From Brachyhypopomus gauderio (lineage: Eukaryota; Chordata; Actinopteri; Gymnotiformes; Hypopomidae): DNA of 64,000 nt. Position numbers and translations under genes: made by a program. Where the stretch lies: NCBI RefSeq assembly GCF_052324685.1, contig NC_135223.1:3468668-3532667 (forward strand). Direction: 5' to 3'. Positions 3,038 to 55,500 of this stretch are shown here, piece after piece; position 1 is the stretch's first letter, and each line of letters begins with the position of its first letter. The notes under the pieces were generated by a model. The model did no database searches and was not told where the DNA came from. It saw only the letters and a list, made by a program, of their open reading frames with translations.

Positions 3038-3921
3038 ACTTCCTGCTGAGCTGGCCTGGCGGCCATTTTGGCTCTTTCTCTGAAGCGGTTTCCATCAGAG
3101 CATATGACGAGTAATTAAGCAGCTCGGAGAGGCCTTTTGAACATGGGGCAAATCGGGGTTATTTATGGCTAACCAGGCCATATATGATCTTACACTTGGT
3201 TTCTTATAAGAAAAAAATATTAACCTCCATTCAAAAAGATTTTTGCAAGTAGCACGAGAGTATGAATTCAAACAAAAAAAAAACTACTTAAAACTTAAAT
3301 GCCGGAGTGGCATGTGAGCCGTCTGCCGGTGTCGTGGAGGCGGATCTGAACGTAGCAGGAGGGGCTGATGGGCCGTGAGCGTCCACGGTTAGCTGGCCCT
3401 GCGGCAGGCGTAATGGCACGGCGCAGTGGGCTAGCGCCTCGGCTCAGTGAAAAGGTAAAAGCAAAAGTTATTTCATGTAAGAGGAGCTTGGTTAGGTCAC
3501 GTAAAAGTAGCCTCCACTGACAGGGCTTCAGGGTGCCGTTTCGTTTAGAAAGTTTTCGTTCGCTGTGGCTATGTGAGCTACGGGCTGGTGGGTATGTCCC
3601 TCGCAAAGTCGTTTTTGGGATTAAAAACCGGATCTATTTTTCCTAAGCAACTGTTTTGGGCCGTCGTTTTTTTTCCCACCTATTCCCGCTGTTTGCAGTG
3701 TCGTTAATTTGTGCCCCTAATAGCTGAGGTCATCGCTCTCCCCTCTCACCCTTATTGACTTTGATTGTGTGAATAAAACCATATGAATGAATCCGAGGTC
3801 TTCAGAGGTCTTGAGTGAGAGACAGGGGCAGGCTTCCACTTTAACCTCACGCTGTAGCACACAATACACCCTCTGGCACTGAACAGGTTGAGTGTTCTCC
3901 CCCCGCCCTCACACACCATAC

Positions 3922-3922
<1 letters not shown>

Positions 3923-3981
<59 letters not shown>

Positions 3982-4040
3982 CGAGCGCGCGCGCATGCGT
4001 GCATGAGCATACATACACACGTGTGTGTGTGTGTGTGTGT

Positions 4041-4103
<63 letters not shown>

Positions 4104-4210: not shown

Positions 4211-5107
4211 CTCCTCTGCCCCCAGCTGTCTGCTGCGTCTAATGATCAGTCCCAGGGGGGCTGCTGGGATGAGGAGTGTGGAAATTGAAACAGACGTTTG
4301 CACCGGCGCTGCGTCGTGTGTGGCAGCTGTGAGCCCCCCGTTCAGGGCTGGAGAGGGCCAATGCCACCTCAGATCCATGAATATCAACGACCACACCCCC
4401 CCCCCCCCGCGCGCTCCCGTCGGCCCATTACACCACCAGGACGGGTCAGATTAGCTTAACGGGCTTCTAATTGGGAGTCAAATCGGGCCGTAAAGATCAA
4501 GAGGAGAAGCAGCGGAACGCGAGGAGACGCTGATCTGGAGTCAGTTAGATCCCTCTTCATCTGACTCCGCGTCAAGAAATTTTTCTTTCAGCTCCGTTCC
4601 TTCCGTGACCCGGAGCTGTATATTGGCGTTGATGTTCTGTGGACTTTGTGAGGTTGCAGTGTTAAAGGTGAAGAGTGGAAATGGCACAGTGAACCGTAGT
4701 GACGGTACAGGACAGTCTTACTTACACCCATCAGCTGGTTCCCGTCCCAGTGCCAGAACAGCCGCCTTCGCCTCCTCGCGGCCCAAATGAGGAGCGCTGG
4801 GTAACCCGCCCCGCCCTGAGTGAGCTCGCAGGCGGGTCATAGGGGGTCGGGCGTCGGGGGTGGTGCAGCCCACATTGGCCGCATGGAGCCTGAGGCGGGT
4901 GTGCGGTGGTGGAGGTGGTGTTGGAGGCTCCTCCATCCTCCCCCAACACCCCCCCCCCCCCCCACGCTCTGCCCGGCCCGCTTAAAGAACTCCCTGAAGG
5001 GATCAGCCAAATTAGGTCTAATGTTCCACGCCAGCTAATGGCCACCACTGCCATTAGAATATGCAGCGCTTGGCACCGCAGGTTTTTGGATGTTCCCAGA
5101 CCACTGT

Positions 5108-5943: not shown

Positions 5944-27761
<21,818 letters not shown>

Positions 27762-35909: not shown

Positions 35910-36424
35910 TCAGGGCCTCGTCCCCTGCTCTATCTGTTGGTGTTGACTCCTAACGGCGAACCTGTTGACATGCACCGGAATGGGAACGACGATTTTTGGA
36001 TTCCTTACAGGCTCGCCGGATCTGTTGTTGACGTTCCCCGCTTTGATCCGTTTCCACTTGGCCCTGCGGTTCTGGAACCATATCTTCACCTGGACCTCGC
36101 TGAGTTTAAGTGCGTGTGCGATCTGCGAGCGCTCCGTGAGCGACAGGTACTTTTTACAGTGGAACTCCTTCTCGAGTTCGAGTAACTGCTCGCTGGTGAA
36201 AGCGGTCCGTCTCCTCCGGCTCTTTCCCGCAGAGCTGCCCGGCGCCAACGGCTCTTGTGAGCCGGGTTTTAGTTTCCCCTTCTGGGATAACGAACCACAG
36301 GTGTTCCCGTCGGAGAAACTTTCGTTTTCGCTGTCGGCGGAGCTGTCGTCCCGGTCGCTGCAGGCGGCCTCGGCGGACTTCAGGTCCAGTTTCTCCTCAT
36401 CCGAACTGTATAGTTTGGTTTCAC
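35910..36424 (-). CDS. gbx1: gbx1 exon 2: acidic linker, homeodomain and C-terminus
   Basis: The acceptor is TTATTGCAG and the exon begins by completing a Gly codon, then [18 protein letters not shown]. An acidic Ser/Asp/Glu-rich stretch leads into the homeodomain, and TGA lies at 35912-35910. The exon is open throughout. Confidence 0.96.
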
Positions 36425-37459
36425 CTGCAATAAGGAAGAGATATTAGTGTTGTGGCTGTGTAGGCCACGATGTCACTGCTCTGGGTCAGTATCTGCGTTA
36501 TCATGTTTCCTGCTTCCAGCGTGTGGGACGTCTTGTCTCTAATTTAGAATTAAGTGATCTCCTTAATTATAATCCTTAAGTGATCTCATAAAAAACTTGA
36601 ATAGATGAGATCTAGCCTATCTAAGATGAACGTGACTGTATTGCATTATTCCAGAAAGATCATAGATACAAGCAACGTTTTGTAATAAAATGACAACTGG
36701 CCAACAGCTACAGTAAAGAACTAAAACGGTCGAGTTTGCAGCCGTATGTCACCACTGTTTAGACTAAATGTGGTTTTAGTTATCAGTCGTTTTTTTTTCC
36801 ATTACACGCACGGATTTAAAAGCATATGTGAACGTAGCATGCAAATTACAAATTTTAAGGAATAAAACTAAACAGAACGTGGTGAAAATGCGGATTATGT
36901 TTACATTTTATCTTCAATAGTGAGGTCGAATTGAGATTATTGTTTTATAATAAACGCCCGCGGATCACTGTAAAATAAAGGCGTTTGAGATGCGAGTTGT
37001 ACTTGAGCGCTCACCTGTAACAGCCTGAAAAGTTTCTGAGAAGTTGAGTAGTTCCGCAGTCTTGTCTCTGCCGTGCAGCTCTTCGTGCGGGCTCTCCTGG
37101 CGATGGATCCCCGCGTCCGCACTTAACCTGGGGCCGGGCATCTCCTGCGAGGGGTAGAAACTGTCTGGAGGGTCCGAGAAACTGGGTAAGGTTGTGGTGA
37201 GCGCCACCATGGAGGGCATTCCCTGGCCCAAACTGGCACAGAACGTGTTCGTCAATCGACCGGCGAACGATGCCAGGGGCGCCAGCGGGGGAATGCCCGA
37301 CGGTAGGGGTGCGTGAGACAGAGCCTGCGGGATCATGAGCGGTCGGTACGGCATGAACATCGGGTAGCCCGTGTAGAGCAAGTGCCCCGGGCGCGGCTGC
37401 GGAGTGCCGATCAACGAGTCTATGGAGAACGCCGTCCCCGGACCGCTGGGTCTCTGCAT
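35910..37459 (-). CDS. gbx1: gbx1, gastrulation brain homeobox 1
   Basis: Two exons (37459-37015 and 36424-35910) join in phase 1 to give 319 residues. The N-terminus, [18 protein letters not shown], is the typical Gbx start, followed by [20 protein letters not shown] and [18 protein letters not shown]. The homeodomain starts at [20 protein letters not shown] and includes [13 protein letters not shown], with Gln at the specificity position 50 of helix 3. The C-terminus reads [20 protein letters not shown], where GBX2 has SRFAIRSQ, so this is GBX1. GBX1 is a nuclear DNA-binding regulator expressed in developing spinal cord and hindbrain. I chose the Met at 37459 because it matches the family start. 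An in-frame Met at 37516 would add 19 atypical residues. Confidence 0.96.
37015..37459 (-). CDS. gbx1: gbx1 exon 1: N-terminal region with repression-type motif
   Basis: The exon runs from ATG (37459-37457) to the donor ACAG|GTGAGC. It holds FSIDSLIG, which is Gbx-specific and resembles engrailed-homology-type repressor motifs, plus the proline-rich middle region and the segment HFSETF-like [12 protein letters not shown] at the exon end. It ends in phase 1. Confidence 0.94.
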
Positions 37460-38639
37460 GTTTGGGGGACAGAGAGTCTCGTGGTGTAAATTCCGAATAG
37501 TTTCTTTCTTCAACAAAACGGGTAAAAAAAAAATGTTCGTCCGCAGTTATCCCGGGGATTAGTGTTGATGATGCGCTCCTCGCCTTCCCCTTGGCGCTGA
37601 CTGAGACCTGACGGGTTTTTTGTCTCTAGCTCAGTCCCTCTCGCTCTATTTGTCACATACTGAGACATAAACACACACGCACCCCTTTCCCTCTCCTTGA
37701 CACCCCCTCGCTCTCTCACGCACACACACACTCACACACACACTCACACACGCTCACACACGCACACAAACAGAGCGCAAACGCTTATCATCAATACAAG
37801 AGGATAGAAGGGGGAGTTGCCCTGGAGACTCATCCATCTTCCTCAAATTACGCTTCATTTCCTCATTCAGGCCGAGGCTTTTTTGGCCGCCTTGAGAGGC
37901 AGCGGTTTCCCAGTGGATACCAAGTAGACGGGTCAAGTCCCCCTCCTATGCCCGGTCCACATTGACTGAGAGGCGATGTGAGAGACTGCTTTAGACCGAC
38001 CCCCTCTGTAATCGTTGACCACACCAACCCAATCAGCTATTATTAATTTTGATTGATGATTAGTAATTACTTTGTATTCAAGGGAAGATATACAACAACG
38101 GCGCTTTTGTTGAATTTTAGGGGCTGATGGCACCGGAGTCAGGAGGGCGGGGAGGCAGATGTTTTAGTCCGCTTGTGAGAGAGAGAGCCTTTTCTGTTCC
38201 GTAGAGCTAAACAGTGAATTTGGCCTCCTATGAGTAGCGCAACAATGATCCCCCAGAGAGAGATTTTCTTGATGAAATTGCATTCGCATGTAAAACAACA
38301 CGGGTTAACGGCACTTTGGAAGCGCGCTCCGGAGCTGCTAGTGAGCACTTTATTAAAGCAAGCAACGGATCAAACGGTTTTTAGACTGACCACTGGAGCA
38401 CGTGTGAAACGGTCTGATTACGTTAAATGTTGATATGCAGTATCATTTGACAGACTCTAATGGACGTTTTGAAGGACCCGCAAATTATGCACAACATATA
38501 TATTTTAAAATCCATTTCACTTTTTTTTTCTTCATCTGAGAACAGACAGTGAGAGAAAAAGGTAATTTAGATCCAAACTTTTTCCTTCTGTGAGCGCTCT
38601 TTTACTCTAAGTAGCCTATTCATTTAGTCGGAGATCATT

Positions 38640-41307: not shown

Positions 41308-44300
41308 CTGCAGAGAGGGGCCCAGGGAACAGTAAAACATTCAGAGTTTGGGCTGAACCTGCCTACACAAGAACCTGACAAGAACCTGGAGATAATACAG
41401 GACAAGCTCCTTCTGCAGAACAGGTGTGTGCAGGTGAAGGCCCTAGGTATCTGAGTGTGCTCCTCACCTGGAATATCTCCGGGGCAACAGCCTCCACCCA
41501 CTTGTCGGTGACACGCAAGCGGTCGTATGCATTCAGAAGCACCTCTATCGTCTGTGGAGACATACAGCAGTACTTCAGGACCTAGGTGAAAACCACACAC
41601 ACACACACACACAACAAAGAAAAAGACCAGGTCAGTGAGTAAAGCTTCTCTAGATGGCCAGTCTGTGTGTGTACTAAACGTAGGTTAAAAAATAAATAAA
41701 ATTGAGCCACATAACTCATAAATCTCATAACTGTCAGCAAAAATCATAATGCTATGTTGTGGTTTTACTTTTTTTTACATTAACTATTTTTACATGAATT
41801 GTTCAGGTGTGTGACACGCAAAACTAGGGTGTAAGTGCACATACTATAAGTATGGACTATTTTAATGTCCAGTAATGTTCCAGTACTCTCATGTGGAAAT
41901 GGGCTGGAAAAGTGTGGAGCCATGTGTAGGTGGAATTTACTATTTGGAGCTGATCTGAGAACAGCTTCACAGTTTCTGTTAAAACAACTAACATCAACAA
42001 CTGGGAAACAGAAACAGCTTCCTGATCAGGGCAACAATGACAGCTTCCACCTGCAGTGATATCCCCACCTGTTTTGAGAAGGGCGAAGGTCAGAGGTCAC
42101 AGTTCTGATGGAGCGCAGAGAAGAATAATTAAGCACTTGCCTTGATGAACAGATTGGGCCCCCCTCTGGGGGATTGTTGAGAACTTCTGCAATTACTGCT
42201 AATTAATCTCCTATTAACATTTGCCTCGTTAACACTCAGGCAATTTATCTGGCACAAGTGAGATTCGCTGGAGGTACAGTACTGAGCAGAACACAGCATT
42301 TAAAGGAGAACCCAAAAAATCCTGCAAACAAATTAACAAAACCAAAAACGTATATTGTTCAGACCTATTTCGCATACTGGTTTGCTCCTTACAGTCCATA
42401 AAGTGGTATATGGTTGATTTCTATATAACCACATGCTTTCGTATCTCCATGAGAGTGCATCAGACAGCAGTATCATTCCTTCCCTTCTTGCTCTCTAGAC
42501 TTGAGGATGAGAGATGGCTCTAATTCATCCCGACCCTTTCAACCCTGTACAAGATTCAAGTTTAATCCTCAAAACCCTGAACTCAAACTCCAATCACCCA
42601 AAGACAGCCAAATAACAGCCGGGCTTCTCTAGCCTCGTCTGAATCTCAAACGCTTCTCCGATTTTAGAAGCTCAGCTAGCTTCTTCGGCATGTGAATAAA
42701 TGTACTGATTGAGGGCAGGATGGATCTCTGGAGGGTCTGGAGGGTGGAGGTTAGAGGGTGGAGGGTGGGGTCTCTGACGTACGTGGTCAGCACCACATCT
42801 CCCAGGCCTCACCTTTGGCAGTGCTCCAGGCCACACCCGGATCGAGCCGTAGTTTAAGAGCGCCCGCACGATCCTCTCCGGCTGGTGCTCCGTCTTGTAG
42901 GACACCATCTTCAGGACGTTGTGCATGGGCGCGTCTCCGCCGTAGTCCATCTGGTTGACGGAGGCGCCGTTCTGCAGCAACAGGTCCACGACCTCCGCGT
43001 TGGCGTTCTTGCAGGCCATGTGCAGCGGCGTCTGGCGGTCGGCGTCGCCCGCGTGCACGTTGGCGCCGGCCTCCACCAGGTGGCGACACACGCTGGCGTA
43101 GCGCCCCAGGGTGGAGCTCTCCTGTGGCTGTGAGCAGGCGGCGTTGAGAGGTGTGAGGCCCTCGTCGTTCTGGTGCTCCAACCCGCCGCCGTAGCGGAGG
43201 TACAGCGCCACGTGCTCCGGGAGGCCATTGCGTGCCGCCACATGCAGGGGCGTGTCGTTCTCCTCAAGGCTCCGCCCACTGATGGCAGCGCCAAACTGAA
43301 GAAGCAGCTTGGCGCACCTTTGGGATGATGAAATAATAACCAAAATATTTAGTTTAATCTTCACATGTTTTAAATGCAGATTATATTTAATTCAATGCAC
43401 TATTTATGTTCTGTTTATGTTATTTACTATTTCTATATATGTTCCTAAATTAAATGCATTTATGAAGTCATTTTTTAATAGTGGGACTTTTTCTGGGAGC
43501 AGATCGAATTTAATCTGGGAGCAGGATAATCAGTAGGTCTTTGTAGAGTTATGAATTGATATCAGATCATGGACACAGTGGTATTGGTACTTCTGTGGGG
43601 CCCTCAATGAGTCCTGAACGCTGACACGCTCAGTGCTGAACGAGTCCTGAACGCCGATACGCTCAGTGCTGAACGAGTCCTGAACGCCGACACGCTCAGT
43701 GCTGAGAGTCCTGAACGCCGACACGCTCAGTGCTGAACGAGTCCTGAACGCCGACACGTTCAGTGCTGAACGAGTCCTGAACGCCGACACGCTCAATGCT
43801 GAACGAGTCCTGAACGCCGACACGTTCAGTGCTGAACGAGTCCTGAACGCCGACACGCTCAGTGCTGAACGAGTCCTGAACGCCGACACGCTCAGTGCTG
43901 AACGAGTCCTGAACGCCGACACGCTCAGTGCTGAACGAGTCCTGAACGCCGACACGCTCAGTGCTGAATGAGTCCTGAATGCTGACACTCTCAGTGCTGA
44001 ATGAGTCCTGAATGCTGACACGCTCGGCGCCGAGTGCTCACTCCAGAGACTCCAGCTCGGTGCACACATGGAGGGGCATCAGGCCGTCCTCGCTGGTGGC
44101 GTTGGCGTTGGCTCCGTACTGCAGAAGCAGCTTGACACAGTCTGCCTGGCACTCCTCACAGGCTTCGTGCAGCGCCGTGGTGCCCCCGGGGGCAAAGTCT
44201 ACGCTGGCCCCCCTGAGGAGCAGGTGCCGGAGGCAGTCGGTGAAGCCTCGCCCAGCCGTGATGTGCAGCGGTGTGGTCAGCTCCTGTTCGTAAGTCAGTG

Positions 44301-46175
44301 ACCACAGCCCTGCGGAGTGGTGAAGAGAGGGGCAGTGAGTCAAAAACGGCACCTCATATAATGTAGCGTATTAGAAATATAATGTATGTGTGCAGTTTCA
44401 GCCACGAGCTGAGTAACTTGATTGGTACAAAATATCAGTGCTATTTTATGAGTTTTAAGCGAGATGATGGATTGCTAATGGAGTTAGTAAATCACATGCG
44501 TAATGTCATGCTCAGAGACAGCACTGAGATCAGATCTGAGATCAGCATGGTTTAAAAGAAAGATTTTTACTGTAGATTCTGAATGTACGCAAAGCCACAG
44601 GAGTAATAATCACAGTATTTTGTTTGTATTTTTGTATATGTATGGTGTAGAATCACAAGATCTGGTGATGAGGCATCAAATAAAGTGTGAGAGAGTCGAT
44701 CGTAAGAAAAGTACAGAGCACTGAACTACAATTACATTTGGATCACAAATCTTCATAAAACTACATAACTACAAAAGTCCTGCAGTCCTGAACTGTGTGT
44801 GGATGTAGGTCTGTGTTGAGTCTGTGCTAGGGCATGTAAATCTATACTTTATAAAGCAAATACAGACAAAGAAACTACATTTCTATTCTTGTCTATTCTA
44901 TTCTATTCTATTCTATTCAGCACAGCAATTCAGCTCCTGGCGTACTCAGTCCTCTGTAGTTGAACCTGAAGTTCTTCCACTCCTCTATGTTGCTGGTGTC
45001 GTAAATAGCGTCCATAAGGTACGAATATTCCGGGTCGTCGACGATACTGATCAAAGTGATGTCATCGCCCACGAGGAGCGCGTTCCAGAACTGAAGCGTG
45101 CTCCCTGAGGCTTGGGCAGTCGCTATCACGTCACAGCGATAGTTCTTCTGTTTCCGGAACTTAATCTTCGGCCCCATGTCTTCGGTACCAATAAGAAGCT
45201 TATCCCTGCTTGAGGAAGATGTCGAGCTCCAACCCCAGTACAGCGTTCGACTGGGTAATGTTTTGAAAGTCTGATCTTGGTTTGCCCAGACAGGGGCTAT
45301 TTAAAGAGAGGCTGACTGTTATATAACCTGTCTGATGCCACGGTGAGATTTTGGCGCACATGCCAAGTTGTTGCGTTTGATTACTCGGCTCCGTTAATGA
45401 TGACCTAAATCCTGCCACTTACCACAATCATAATCCCAATCACAGCTGTAATCCCAAATGTAACTCACGTATGCTCTCGTATAGAGAGCATACATTAATG
45501 ACTGCATTAATGATTTCAGTCTGGTGCCTACCTCTGAAACCTTCTGGAAATGGAATTGTTAAAATGATTTTCAGTTCAAAATATATTTTGGCTGCTGTAC
45601 AACCCAACTTTCAAACGCTGCTTTCATGAGTTCAGTGATCTTCAGATCAGTTAAGATAATATTTTTGATTACAGATATCTCCATAGATTTCCAGTCATAG
45701 TTAACTCCACGACTAATTGATCAGTTGTCATCCAACAAGATTTTGTAATGACTCTCTCTTCAACTGGCTGCTTCAGCCATCTGATTCCATCCACACGACC
45801 AAAGTCAAAGGAACAATGACCGGTTTCCATCTTACCTCTCACCTTACCATCCGAGACCCAACGCATGGCCCCACCCTCAGGCTGGATGACCAGTGTGGGG
45901 CTGACGCCCTTAGGGAAGAGCTCCTTCACTGCCCCCACGTCCCCCGTGAAGAGGGCGTTCTGCACCACCAGGTCTCGGCACACGAGGGGCGGAGGTGCCC
46001 CCGCGGTGGGCGGCGCCGAGCGCGCGCTCCGCCCCAGGGCCTCCTTCCGGAGCAAGTAGCCGGTGAGCACGATCTCCGTCGCCCGTCGCTGGTGTTTCTG
46101 CCTCTCCAGCAGGTCCCGCTCCTGCTCCAGAGAGCGCAGGGCTGCCGGGGAGAAGGCGAACCTCCCGTGGGACAT
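41122..46175 (-). CDS. asb10: asb10, ankyrin repeat and SOCS box protein 10, with two alternative first exons
   Basis: Exon 1a (46175-45848) or exon 1b (45177-44946) joins exon 2 (44309-44042), exon 3 (43317-42813), exon 4 (41581-41468) and exon 5 (41307-41122). All junctions agree in phase, which gives 466 or 434 residues. The shared body starts LWSLTYEQELTTPLHITAGR and carries a series of ankyrin repeats. It ends with a SOCS box: PRSLQHLARHQLRTYLEG as the Elongin B/C box and LGLPTFLKDYL as the Cullin-5 box. ASB proteins are substrate adaptors of Elongin-Cullin-5 ubiquitin ligases. Landmarks such as RVWPGALPKV and RSLQHL match ASB10, and the gbx1 linkage agrees. ASB18 is the nearest alternative. 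Confidence 0.93.
41468..41581 (-). CDS. asb10: asb10 exon 4: linker before the SOCS box
   Basis: The 114 bp exon is in phase 0 at both ends, with acceptor TTTTCACCTAG and donor CCAG|GTGAGG. It reads VLKYCCMSPQTIEVLLNAYD and ends VAPEIFQ, corresponding to the linker between the last ankyrin repeat and the SOCS box in ASB10. Confidence 0.92.
42130..42280. promoter_or_regulatory. candidate regulatory segment in asb10 intron 3
   Basis: The largest shared asb10 intron (42812-41582) holds a unique segment with AATAATTAAGC, GCAATTACTGC, GCTAATTAATC and CTATTAACATTTG. Motif density is well above that of the rest of the intron. Confidence 0.25.
42813..43317 (-). CDS. asb10: asb10 exon 3: central ankyrin repeats
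   Basis: The acceptor is TCATCCCAAAG and the donor AAAG|GTGAGG. Together with the previous exon it reads LECAKLLLQFGAAISGRS. It then carries the repeat cores ENDTPLHVAARNGLPEHV, EGLTPLNAACSQ, DRQTPLHMACKNANAEVV and GGDAPMHNVLK, and finishes with RALLNYGSIRVWPGALPK. It ends in phase 0. Confidence 0.95.
43604..44032. repeat. 33 bp minisatellite in asb10 intron 2, about 13 copies
   Basis: The unit is CGAGTCCTGAACGCCGACAC followed by GCTCAGTGCTGAA. One copy (near 43700) is shortened, and the copies near 44000 carry AATGCTG variants. The array starts within about 10 bases of the asb10 exon 2 splice donor. The 33-base length keeps frames open on both strands. Confidence 0.93.
44042..44309 (-). CDS. 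asb10: asb10 exon 2: first ankyrin repeats
   Basis: The acceptor is CACTCCGCAG and the donor TGGA|GTGAGC. It encodes ELTTPLHITAGRGFTDCL, GASVDFAPGGTTALHEACEE and ANATSEDGLMPLHVCTELES, about three ankyrin repeats. It ends in phase 2. The donor is directly followed by a 33 bp minisatellite. Confidence 0.94.
44946..45177 (-). CDS. asb10: asb10 alternative first exon 1b (short isoform)
   Basis: It starts MGPKIKFRKQKNYRCDVIAT and contains LQFWNALLVGDDITLISIVD and IEEWKNFRFNYRGL. The donor is CTGA|GTACGC in phase 1, so A plus GG of exon 2 makes Arg and gives RGLRLWSLTYEQ. This junction matches my recollection of human ASB10, which reads RALRLWSLTYEE there. It has its own ATG and no acceptor is needed. 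Confidence 0.88.
45848..46175 (-). CDS. asb10: asb10 alternative first exon 1a (long isoform)
   Basis: It starts MSHGRFAFSPAALRSLEQER, then a basic coiled segment (LLERQKHQRRATEIV), and ends LFTGDVGAVKELFPKG followed by a short tail. The donor is GATG|GTAAGG in phase 1, so G plus GG of exon 2 makes Gly and gives DGLWSLTYEQ. The start at 46175 is the Met nearest to the recognisable N-terminus. The frame stays open upstream to 46301, but that stretch does not look family-like. Confidence 0.85.
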
Positions 46176-50370: not shown

Positions 50371-51893
50371 AAAGATGCATTGACTAATGAAACTAGTCCA
50401 AACAAGACTAATAAAACTGCATTAAATGATTATTTTATGGATACAAATTTAACCCATAGAATTAAATTATACTGTAATGTCCAGACGTCTGGGGACAGAC
50501 AAGCTATTCTGCCAGTGGGAATTAATTATCCAGTGGAAACATTTTTCAGAGGAGCCTCTCAGTTGGTATATTTCCTACATTTTTACAGACAAAGCAGCCA
50601 ATACACTAAGCCTAGGTTTGACCTAAACTCCACTCATAATGGGGAATCATCATTTCAAACCTACAGTCCTTAATTTAAGTCTGATATCAGCTGACGGTGT
50701 AGCTATCTGCGATTTATCTTTGTCAGGAAAATGAAATGAAAATCTGTGATTCACATGCTGGCTTGTCATGCACATGTTCAATAGCAAACAAAAACCCCTC
50801 AAACTCCAGTTGAAAATTTATTCCACACCAGGCATTATAACAACTCTCTAAAGATCTTGAATTTCATTCTTTATATGACCTTTTGACCTGATACGGCTTG
50901 TCAACCATCAAATTTCACAAATATGATCAGAGGAATAAAACAAAATCAGTTTTGGCATAAATGTCCAAGGCTTATTGCTAATTAGGACCTGGAGTGTGCT
51001 GTAGTGACCAGTGACTCATCTTCTGGCATGATTATTCTTCAGTGATTTTTTCCCCTGTGCACAATGCACTACATGAACATCTGATTCACTCTCAATTTTT
51101 TATAGTCACATTGTCTGGGCCGAACACAAAAGTTACTGGAGAAATTATGGCAGTTTACAGAGTTGGCAAACCTATAAACCTGTGTGTGGGTCATGTAACC
51201 TTATTTAGTTACTTCTACACACTCTAATAAGCAGCCACTGTAGAAGGCCCCCAGACCCTTGGACACTTTTCATGCCCAACTGGTTCAGTTTAGGTCTGAT
51301 GTTTAGTCCAGGATGGCTTTGTTAACTCCTCTCCAAAGCACATGTGAAGGTCCCTCACCAGCGTCCTGAGCTGGGTTATGCTCCACCTGAGGACGGTGCG
51401 TGGACATCACTGAGTGGTGGTATTCACAGTATCATATGTTGCACTACAGACCAGCAGTGGCATCTTTCGGGACATAAGTGCACTCAGATAGAGTGAACAT
51501 GATCCCCGTTTCCTGGTTGTTGCCTTCATATACCTTTTATGGAGTACGTTTACAATAATATGCCACTACTACCATCTAGTGGGGACTATGTACTACTGCA
51601 CAACACCATCCAAGCATTATATAATTTTTTTTTACATCTCAGCTCACTTGTAGGTTGCAAATAGCCGTTTGAATTGTATAAGCTTATAACGGGCAATTCC
51701 GTTAGACCAGTAGTTTTTAATCGCACTCCATCATGAAAAACTGAACATAACGCTTTAACCCTTATGTTAACTTGACTGTCGCTTTAAAAATGCATCACTA
51801 CTGACAATTGAGAATTAAAGCAGAGGTAGGAGATAAGTATAGACCGCTTTCGGCATGAGGAACAACAAAAAAGCTCCATAGTTATTCTGTGCA

Positions 51894-51899
51894 TTTATT
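51894..51899 (-). promoter_or_regulatory. polyadenylation signal of the H2B variant
   Basis: AATAAA on the minus strand lies about 78 bases after the stop codon. The interval between the stop and this signal contains no match to the usual replication-histone stem-loop with its ACCCA-flanked six-base stem, so processing by polyadenylation is likely. Confidence 0.6.
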
Positions 51900-51976
51900 C
51901 ACAAAAGTAAACGGTCACAAAAGAAGAAACAAAACAAGAAGGCTTTTGTCTGTGGGTGCTTCTTCGCACAAACTGC

Positions 51977-52213
51977 TCATTTTGAGCTCGTGTACTTGGT
52001 TACCGCTTTGGTCCCCTCCGACACGGCGTGTTTGGCGAGCTCACCGGGCAACAGGAGGCGAACCGCCGTCTGAACTTCACGGCTGGTGATCGTGGAGCGC
52101 TTGTTGTACAGCGTCAGTCTGGAGGCCTCCGTTGCGATGCGCTCGAAGACGTCGTTCACGAAGGAGTTCATAATACTCATAGCCCTGCTGGAAATACCTG
52201 TGTCGGGGTGGAC
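51977..52213 (-). CDS. histone H2B variant exon 2: histone fold and C-terminal helix
   Basis: The exon encodes 78 residues starting [11 protein letters not shown] and ending YTSSK, followed by TGA at 51979-51977. It contains the alpha-2, alpha-3 and C-terminal helices without any break. Confidence 0.93.
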
Positions 52214-52438
52214 CTGGGGACATATCCCACAGAACAGTCAGTTGAGAAGGTCATGTTCGCGAATTAGAGTTTACACACGTTGTTGAGCGGGGTTATTCAG
52301 ATCCGAGCAAAAACAACCCACCTGTTTCAAAACTTTATAAATATACACGGCGTATGTTTCCCGCCTTTTCCCTTTCCTTTTGGACGCTTTTTTGTCGCCT
52401 GGAGTTTTCCCTTTCTTTTTAGTTCCGTCATTCGTCAT
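51977..52438 (-). CDS. intron-containing histone H2B variant
   Basis: Exon 1 (52438-52322) and exon 2 (52213-51977) join in phase 0 to 117 residues. The intron is 108 bp, with donor CAG|GTGGGT and acceptor TGTCCCCAG|GTC. The tail is short and Lys-rich but unlike canonical H2B (start [20 protein letters not shown]). The fold region is nearly canonical: [60 protein letters not shown] and [20 protein letters not shown]. The acidic-patch glutamates and the C-terminal ubiquitination lysine (SEGTK) are kept. Substitutions such as SIM for GIM and TLYNKRS for AHYNKRS mark it as a variant. The intron and the poly(A) signal suggest a replication-independent gene. It may be the H2B.K-type germline variant, which I recall as intron-bearing and linked to this chromosomal block, but that is inference. 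Confidence 0.9.
52322..52438 (-). CDS. histone H2B variant exon 1: tail and alpha-1
   Basis: The exon encodes 39 residues from ATG (52438-52436) to VLKQ. The tail is about nine residues shorter than canonical H2B and lacks its usual Pro/Ala-rich start. The canonical KESYSVYVYKV is replaced by [11 protein letters not shown]. The exon ends exactly between the codons for VLKQ and VHPD. Confidence 0.9.
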
Positions 52439-52513
52439 TTTAGGTGGTTGTTATTGTAACGTGTGTAATCACAACGTTTAGAATATATTCTGCAGAAAGA
52501 GCGCAGCTAAACG

Positions 52514-52565
52514 CACGTGCCGCTCCACAGACCTCAGCTGTCGCCCATTATCAATTATGACGTCT
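52514..52565 (-). promoter_or_regulatory. candidate promoter elements of the H2B variant
   Basis: Upstream of the start codon, at about -76 to -127, lie an E-box core CACGTG (52514-52519) and a CRE-like AGACGTCA (52558-52565). No clear TATA box or CCAAT box was seen. Both short motifs may be chance matches. Confidence 0.25.
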
Positions 52566-55500
52566 CTCAAATGAATGATCAAAGTCTTAATTGGAGTTTA
52601 ATAGTAGGTCTAATTAGGCTATAATTGCTATTGGATATTTGCATGTGGTGCTACCTATAGAAAAGTACTGTCAAAATCACCTCTTACAAAACATGTCACT
52701 AATGTCTTATACAATTCCATGAACAGCGGTTAATAAAATGAGTTTCTTTATAACCTCAGTTAGCCACTAAGTGGCGTTCCTGCGTCATTATGGTAGTGTG
52801 TGCGCGTGTATGTGTGAGTGTGAGAGAGCGAGCAAGTCATGAAAAATCGCGTTATTAGCTTCCAACATACCTAGATTTAACCCGCTCAGCTAAAGCTCAG
52901 CTGTCATTGAGTTTTCGGACAGCAAAGCTCAGCCTAAATGAAGAAAGGCAAAGACGAGAGAGATTTATTTAGTGACAATCTCTCTATGGACAGAAACAAG
53001 CATGGCCATAAACGGGTTCAGTTCATCCTACAGCGATGGATGATGGGAAAATAACCTTATCAAACTCATCAAAGGAAAAAATTCTAACAAAGGCGCCTGC
53101 ATTTTGCTGAAAATCAGATGAGAAAATAAATTAATGTCTTTAAATAAATCATTTAAAAAGTTACAGAAATGTTTTAGTATTTAAAAGCTGTCAATTTGTT
53201 CAGTCTACGGAGAAGCTAGACAGGTGGCAGAATTGCCTCATTTGATTTAGTTTGTCTCTTGCCTAGTACATGCAATAACATTTGGTATGTGCCAAGAAAA
53301 AATAAGAAAACGGCAGTTTGCTTGCTCTGTCTTCTCTGCTGAATGTTCTGGAAGCGTTGAGAACAAAGGACCTGCAATATAGTCTCAGTACAGAGTACAT
53401 GACAAACGCCTACAGACAATTCATTTTGTGCTTCTGAGAATCTCATTTGTATCCACAGTCTGTATCCACAGCACTCAGCATACACATCACAGTCTGTGTC
53501 CACACGTGTAAAATAAACATATTCACCCCACAGATTTAGGCTCCCGTGTTAAGCTGGTAATTATCGGACACAGTTTCATCTTAGACTATAGTAAAATATT
53601 ATGAAAACACTCTGAATTTGATCACCTCAACACCAAAGCTAAAATAAATTTAGTTTGGTGAATAAAATTAGGCTTTACTTAAAATGCCTATCTTGACTGA
53701 TTTAGCTAATGCTAATCTCATGTGGCTTAGTCTGATGAGACCATGGTTAAAGGGATAGTGTTATTATACAAGATATGGTTTTTGTGAACTAAAACTGGGT
53801 GCTTTTAATATGCAAGTATTTGATGGTGTTGCTGGTTTTTCTTGTTCTGAATCAGCCTGGAGTTCAGACTCGTATGAACCAGTGTCTGACCCACAGTAGG
53901 CCTAATGTCCTCAGCACTGATCCTGAATCAGTTCTCTTCTGTGAATACTGCAGAGCTCTCCCCCTGGTGCACGAGGTCCGCTGCACTCCTGTTTGAGGTG
54001 GCCAATGGGAGGTAGGTCATTAGCATACAAAATCAATGCACAGAAAATGACCTTTTCTTCTCAGTGGAGAAAATGGACACACTGAACCAAAGCTGAATTA
54101 GGGTGGATTTCTTTTTGGTCCCTATACAGGATTGTTTGGAGGGAGCACGGGGAACTGTGTTGCAATACATTTATGAATGAATGCTCTGCCGAGATATAAA
54201 TGTGGCCCAGGTTTCAGACACGAGCAGAGCTGCAACATCTCGTCAGTGAGTCTGATAACATGTTCGGTCAGGGCGTGACACAGCGATGTCACATAGCTGT
54301 GAGGGAGGAGAAACCTTTTTAAGGACGAAAGTCATCTTTCCTTCCGTGGAAACAGGTCCATGAGCGAGAGCCTCATGATCACGACGTCATTCAGGACGAC
54401 TGTGTGGTGTCAACTGTGTAAACCAGAGAACAGCAGTGATACAAGCGTCTGAAGAGGACACGATTTGGAAGTGTGAGAAGACGAAGACGGATTAGTAAAG
54501 TGAAATTACCATTGGGAGGGTTCAAAAACGGCTCGTTGTGTAGTTTTTGTTCAGTTGTGGTTTAGTTGGTGAGGCACAGATGGAAATACTCTTGTATGAA
54601 GGACAAACTTGTTCGACAGAGATCAGTAGGGAGAAATTCCAGGGAAATTAAATGTCCTCAACAGCAAAATGTCTTTTACCATTAATGCATGCGCTACTGA
54701 ATCAGGTAAAAATGACCTTGCCCCGCCACTACATTGAAGACGTCTAGGACTGTGCGACATTTTGCCATCCATCCGCGCTGCTGGAAAAAAGATGCTGCAG
54801 CAGCCAAGACTGCGGAGTGGAGGAAGCTTCCAGGCGTGGCGTTCCTCTTCAGCGGCGTCATCGCTGCTGTGTACGATGGCAGAGCCAGCCTTGCAGCCAT
54901 GGAGAACCACTGGAGGAGAAAGACTGGGCCCTCATCACAGCTGGTGGTCGATTCTGCACCAAAGCACCCAAGCATTACGAAAACTGTAGGGGCTGCAGAA
55001 TGCCAAAACCCAGAAAATCACGAGCTAGCCTGCAGCAAGTTTTAAAAGAATGAAAACAGACACTCACACCTGAGCACAAAACAGGTTGTAGCTCTAAGAG
55101 CAAGATCGAATACCACATTCTGTTTGATTAACCAGCTGACAGACCCTATAATGCCAAGGTTGTCTGGTCCAGCTGTTAAACTGCATTCGCATGGGAATGA
55201 TTTCTTCTCTGCCTGTTGGGCTCAAGGCTTGTTTGTGGAATGTATATTTAAAGCTAGTCCAATTGATCACCAAATATTTGCAAAGGAACTGAAGCTAAAT
55301 CATTATTTAAACTAACTGTTTTTTGTAGTTTACTGCACTATTATTTAAAATCACAGGAAAGATCAACAATAAAAAAAAAAAAGAAACTTCAGCTCCACCC
55401 TCCTCTCTCCCACTGGAAATCGCCACATCACATCATTGCACGTTAGCATAAAACTAAACTATTCTCAACTTTATCTCATTTCCTAATCTGTCTATCCTAA

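Follow-up and report, generated by a model that had tools for sequence, protein, structure and literature searches.

The 64,000-nucleotide stretch analysed here (the window), positions 3,468,668 to 3,532,667 of the forward strand of contig NC_135223.1 of the gymnotiform fish Brachyhypopomus gauderio, contains a solitary histone H2B gene with an intron. We refer to it as the H2B.K-like gene. In all likelihood it is the ordinary fish form of H2B.K (H2BK1), a variant already on record in vertebrates from fish to humans and associated with eggs and early embryos. Its product is a 117-residue H2B encoded by two exons on the minus strand (52438-51977 in window numbering; Table 1), with a single intron inside the histone-fold coding sequence. 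A first-pass annotation of the window had described a near-canonical H2B with an unusual lysine-rich tail and a 108 bp phase-0 intron between VLKQ and VHPD, and had suggested that it could be the fish counterpart of H2B.K. The coordinates and intron proved exact when the boundaries were read on the sequence, with CAG/GTGGGT at the donor and TCCCCAG/GTC at the acceptor. The intron also holds CTGAC, a putative branch-point word whose A lies roughly 25 nt away from the acceptor. Retention of the intron would add 16 codons and then a stop.

The spliced protein matches the Pfam Histone family with 81.1 bits (E 1e-22) and contains an H2B-type core-histone fold with a full alpha-C helix. Its core is identical at 81 of 92 positions (88%) to the H2B encoded in the histone arrays of the same genome (array H2B). 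In human numbering, the core changes relative to array H2B are K34R, S36T, I39V, V41I, K57R, G60S, I69V, G75T, A81T, H82L and I94V, of which A81T and H82L presumably sit at the edge of the DNA-binding loop L2. The last 31 residues, which include K120 and the alpha-C helix with its acidic-patch residues, are identical to array H2B. The tail comprises 25 residues with 11 Lys/Arg, against 32 residues with 13 Lys/Arg in array H2B, and the net charge per residue is 0.128, compared with 0.145 for the canonical protein. The description of a near-canonical fold carrying an unusual lysine-rich tail is thus borne out. Among solved structures, H2B chains from Drosophila (182 bits) came out slightly ahead of canonical vertebrate chains (about 180 bits); the top-listed structure, 8grq_D, was set aside as it contains two H2B copies.

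Despite this similarity in protein sequence, synonymous sites are saturated relative to array H2B (proportion of synonymous differences, pS, 0.72), and the ratio of nonsynonymous to synonymous substitution rates (dN/dS) is about 0.05, an approximate value because dS is too large to be exact. Together, saturated silent sites and this low ratio indicate that the gene is old and under purifying selection, and the core match is beyond what chance would be expected to give.

A whole-genome protein search returned 39 matches: 36 canonical-type H2Bs, the two exons of the H2B.K-like gene itself, and one decayed copy on contig C32. Exon 1 appeared as a separate match to residues 1-40, and exon 2 as a 96% match to residues 36-117. 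The corresponding DNA search gave 37 matches, in which the H2B.K-like gene alone covers exon 1. The other 36 cover exon 2 together with the last three intron bases, CAG, which line up with the Q codon of the intronless H2B copies. The closest further core-histone match on contig C13 lies about 1.15 Mb off (150 of the 181 candidates were scored), and the gene indeed stands alone outside histone clusters, as had been proposed.

We placed the gene in a tree of nine rows and 94 columns, which held the H2B.K-like protein, two distinct cores from its own genome, and chicken, two Xenopus, human, fly and yeast sequences, with rows from the Protein Data Bank (PDB) among them. The H2B.K-like gene branched apart from the canonical rows of vertebrates (support 79/96). 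A clade of the gene with the two canonical rows of its own genome was rejected by the approximately unbiased (AU) test (p-AU 0.003), whereas a grouping of the gene with the vertebrate rows, to the exclusion of fly and yeast, was not rejected (p-AU 0.145). Placement inside canonical teleost H2B, which the first-pass annotation had named as an outcome that would refute its proposal, thus found no support within these nine rows, among which a named H2B.K does not figure. The result supports the view that this is not a canonical H2B of this genome, and on the saturated silent sites and the p-AU value we reject a canonical H2B lying outside a cluster.

The 3' end points the same way. The annotation had read a normal AATAAA in place of a histone stem-loop, and this reading stands: across the whole window, every Rfam family stayed below its gathering score, and Histone3 was absent from the four sub-threshold matches in a permissive scan of 51500-52900 (E up to 10), so that a hidden histone stem-loop in the 3' untranslated region (UTR) is rejected. 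As a positive control, the same model gave nine matches in five of eight histone loci of this genome; the misses were L043 and L013/L045, the latter two being one place. A simple stem-loop pattern was sought in 29 distinct canonical H2B contexts, drawn from all 36 canonical-type matches (37 occurrences, one place counted twice), and was present 27-33 nt past the stop in 27 of them, the exceptions being C10:22514346 and C12:15238186. Past the stop of the H2B.K-like gene, the only perfect 6-bp/4-nt pairing within 300 nt is A/T/GU-rich and overlaps the AATAAA. Pairs of AATAAA with a T/GT-rich stretch occur ten times on the 64-kb minus strand by the same script (about 0.016 per 100 nt), and 4 of the 29 canonical contexts likewise have AATAAA in the first 300 nt past the stop. 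AATAAA by itself is therefore no distinguishing mark of the H2B.K-like gene.

Other short motifs lie around the gene. Three TTTTGT words precede the AATAAA and weakly resemble cytoplasmic polyadenylation elements. Upstream of the ATG lie an octamer and a CCAAT word. Octamers number three in the window (about 0.014 per 300 bp), and one lies within 300 nt in 1 of the 29 canonical contexts. The octamer and CCAAT are suggestive, at most, of promoter elements. Along with the TTTTGT words they would fit regulated germline use, but these are short motifs that were chosen post hoc.

The neighbours named in Table 1 bear on the identity of the gene. The homeodomain frame of gbx1 is identical to the GBX-1 chain 2m34 at 66 of 68 aligned residues. 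The annotation had put asb10 next to the histone gene; an ASB-type ankyrin gene does adjoin it, but its identity as ASB10 is by position only, since solved structures do not separate ASB10 from other ankyrin proteins for this gene. Its 5' frame, with a start codon placed by eye, was read as the first exon and has no Pfam match. Beside one of its ankyrin exons, at 43533-44078, tandem short words run through open frames and are probably an intronic minisatellite. Pfam matched none of seven further open reading frames of the window. Some 28 kb beyond the H2B.K-like gene lies the next nameable gene, at L010:6842-7483, which encodes a channel of ASIC type. Between the two lie transposase-like frames at L009:4276-4614 (minus strand) and L009:7501-7899 (minus strand), presumably Tc1-type as judged by eye.

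Table 1. Features at the H2B.K-like locus, in window positions.
Feature	Position	Strand	Remarks
H2B.K-like gene, coding exon 1	52322..52438	-	from the ATG to the Q of VLKQ; encodes the Lys-rich tail (25 residues) and the beginning of the fold
H2B.K-like gene, intron	52214..52321	-	108 nt, phase 0, GT-AG, between VLKQ and VHPD
H2B.K-like gene, coding exon 2 and stop codon	51977..52213	-	from the V of VHPD to SSK and the stop; encodes fold, alpha-C helix and the region of K120
AATAAA	51894..51899	-	77 nt past the stop, then a T/GT-rich stretch; putative poly(A) site by sequence
3' UTR without histone stem-loop	51894..51976	-	three TTTTGT words before AATAAA
Octamer ATGCAAAT	52637..52644	-	206 nt upstream of ATG; CCAAT at -196
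AGAP-type gene, PH and ArfGAP exons	12180..13621	+	agap3 by position
gbx1	35913..37546	-	homeodomain frame 35913-36443; frame 36968-37546 taken as first exon by eye, without Pfam match
ASB-type ankyrin gene	42675..46175	-	asb10 by position; two ankyrin-rich frames, Pfam Ank_2 1.3e-32 and 1.9e-25

Three further H2B loci in the genome deserve mention. L044 (C32:574110-574397, minus strand) is the decayed intronless copy, with stops, frame slips and a canonical-like tail. We considered whether it could be a retrocopy that proves splicing of the H2B.K-like gene, and rejected this on its tail and on its better match to canonical H2B (86.0 versus 55.4 bits for DNA; 95.5 versus 84.3 by tblastn). Counter to a canonical origin, it does share by eye a few residues with the H2B.K-like gene (RAMSI; Leu before Tyr). 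L045 (C10:22510000-22518000) holds a divergent pair away from the large arrays, an H2B at 4305-4682 (plus strand) and an H2A frame at 3599-4042 (minus strand). Upstream of this H2B are an octamer (-98) and a TATA-like word (-82), and no Histone3 match was found across this 8-kb locus at E up to 1; it is possibly a second H2A/H2B pair that is free of the stem-loop. L043 (C12:15238186-15238524, minus strand), roughly 145 kb away from the histone cluster on C12, is a probably decaying H2B: its core differs at 5 of 94 residues, and the stem-loop pattern is absent.

How does the H2B.K-like gene compare with known H2Bs? Syntenic orthologs of H2B.K have been described from species at least as distant as bony fishes, zebrafish being one of those searched, and all of them carry an intron; poly(A) signals are present in most H2B.L, H2B.N and H2B.K genes (Raman et al. 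2022, PMC8857922). A nomenclature paper gives H2BK1 one-to-one orthologs in birds and fish and lists none in mouse (PMC9526256). The main text on H2B.K synteny does not print the flanking genes (PMC8857922); a cattle copy-number region of about 160 kb spans TMUB1, AGAP3, ASB10, GBX1, IQCA1L, H2BK1, ABCF2, CHPF2 and SMARCD3 (PMC11061390). The two traits that the annotation had ascribed to H2B.K, an intron and linkage to this region, are thus found in print, the intron in all orthologs (PMC8857922) and H2BK1 alongside ASB10 and GBX1 (PMC11061390). The H2B.K-like gene shares with the published class an intron in the fold, a single copy, a poly(A) signal with no stem-loop, a near-canonical fold with a divergent tail, and a neighbourhood of AGAP, GBX1 and ASB10 type. 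Its net charge lies slightly below canonical, as reported for H2B.K (PMC8857922). Most fold changes of H2B.K are described as lying away from the H2A/H4 contacts, with several near L2 (PMC8857922). A81T and H82L presumably fall close to that cluster.

The published mammalian proteins differ in the tail. Theirs contains polyglutamine and lacks key lysines (PMC8857922), whereas the tail here is lysine-rich without polyglutamine. Because polyglutamine was published for the mammalian orthologs that were compared, we do not take it as defining for fish H2B.K. Human H2B.K has 16 fold-domain changes (PMC11742582), against 11 in the 92-residue core here, over stretches that are not identical. Judged from the protein sequence, the departures from mammalian H2B.K are small, namely the lysine-rich tail without polyglutamine and the conserved core.

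Other H2B classes fit less well. In H2B.N (H2BN1) the intron occupies the fold position that it has in H2B.K (PMC8857922), but as published H2B.N is confined to mammals, its alpha-C is truncated and its fold identity is below 50%; the full alpha-C and 88% core identity found here rule it out. Canonical replication-coupled H2Bs (those on C17, C20, C70, C133, C10 and C12) resemble the H2B.K-like protein in the core and in the K120 and alpha-C region. However, they have one open frame, are mostly clustered and carry the stem-loop in nearly all contexts, and the H2B.K-like gene has none of these features. A sea urchin cleavage-stage H2B groups with vertebrate H2B.K without bootstrap support and is intronless, and its orthology was left open (PMC8857922).

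Taken together, the fold intron, the poly(A) signal, the absence of a stem-loop, the single copy and the AGAP/GBX1/ASB neighbours support the suggestion that this is the counterpart of H2B.K. Since AGAP-type, gbx1 and ASB-type neighbours are also present in the cattle H2BK1 region, this side of the locus is common to both, AGAP3 and ASB10 being assigned from domains and position. Several observations weigh against our identification. On the far side an ASIC-type gene stands instead of ABCF2, and neither ABCF2 nor IQCA1L was seen near the locus there, no search having been made elsewhere in the genome. A turkey table lists AGAP3, GBX1, ASB10, ABCF2, CHPF2 and SMARCD3 together with H2BK1 unlisted (PMC8470100). 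The tail, as described, lacks the mammalian polyglutamine. The tree is small, with no named H2B.K among its rows, none of its six inner branches has the strong-support mark, and one of the two canonical rows from this genome is probably a decaying copy. Orthology rests on synteny and gene structure, and splicing and polyadenylation are predicted from the sequence. Even so, we hold with high confidence that the best explanation of the whole is a fish H2B.K ortholog, single-copy, intron-containing and polyadenylation-type, lying outside the arrays and most likely providing a supply of H2B to oocytes and embryos.

The alternatives can be weighed against this explanation. The one that retains most credit, while still improbable, accepts a fish H2B.K but gives it a main role in testis or soma. 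In published data H2B.K is expressed chiefly in ovary and oocyte in mammals and in ovary in chicken, and H2B variants went undetected in the somatic tissues that the source examined (PMC8857922). A second, quite unlikely alternative is that an array H2B left its cluster in an ancestor and independently acquired both intron and poly(A) signal, converging on H2B.K. The high core identity with array H2B, the orthology assigned without an alignment to a named H2B.K and the unseen ABCF2 side would all suit such an origin. Yet silent sites are saturated, a clade with the canonical H2Bs of this genome is rejected, and published H2B.K agrees with the gene in location and in having an intron. A decaying or silent H2B copy whose apparent intron is just an insertion we regard as highly implausible, although this genome does contain one decayed H2B. 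A pseudogene is rejected on the open frame and low dN/dS of the H2B.K-like gene, and its clean phase-0 GT-AG boundaries and poly(A) signal argue likewise.

If the H2B.K-like gene is a fish H2B.K, how might it be used? We infer that its mRNA is spliced and polyadenylated. Because it should be both, it would escape the S-phase-coupled stem-loop control that governs array histones. Cells that are not replicating, in the first place growing oocytes, could thereby produce H2B.K and store it as maternal mRNA or protein. In oocytes and early embryos it would be H2A's partner in ordinary nucleosomes, differing in its tail and at the edge of L2. In pig, H2BK1 is reported among the top five genes that are lower in in-vitro-matured than in in-vivo oocytes. 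A limited literature search found no functional study of H2B.K in fish. A more ambitious version, which we offer as doubtful speculation, holds that fish H2B.K represents a lineage older than the vertebrate canonical H2Bs and provides a maternal polyadenylated supply under cytoplasmic polyadenylation control through the three TTTTGT words, as a stem-loop-free parallel to the array histones of the egg, with the polyglutamine tail arising later in tetrapods or mammals.

Novelty of the gene is not supported, because fish H2B.K has already been published: the H2B.K-like gene extends a variant class that is in print, fish members included, and the discovery of that class belongs to earlier work. 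What the locus adds is another genome that has kept an intron-bearing, poly(A)-type H2B in its neighbourhood with the fold nearly unchanged. As mouse has no H2B.K, a fish would be a convenient animal for an H2B.K knock-out, in which the hypothesised role in oocyte and early-embryo chromatin could be checked directly.
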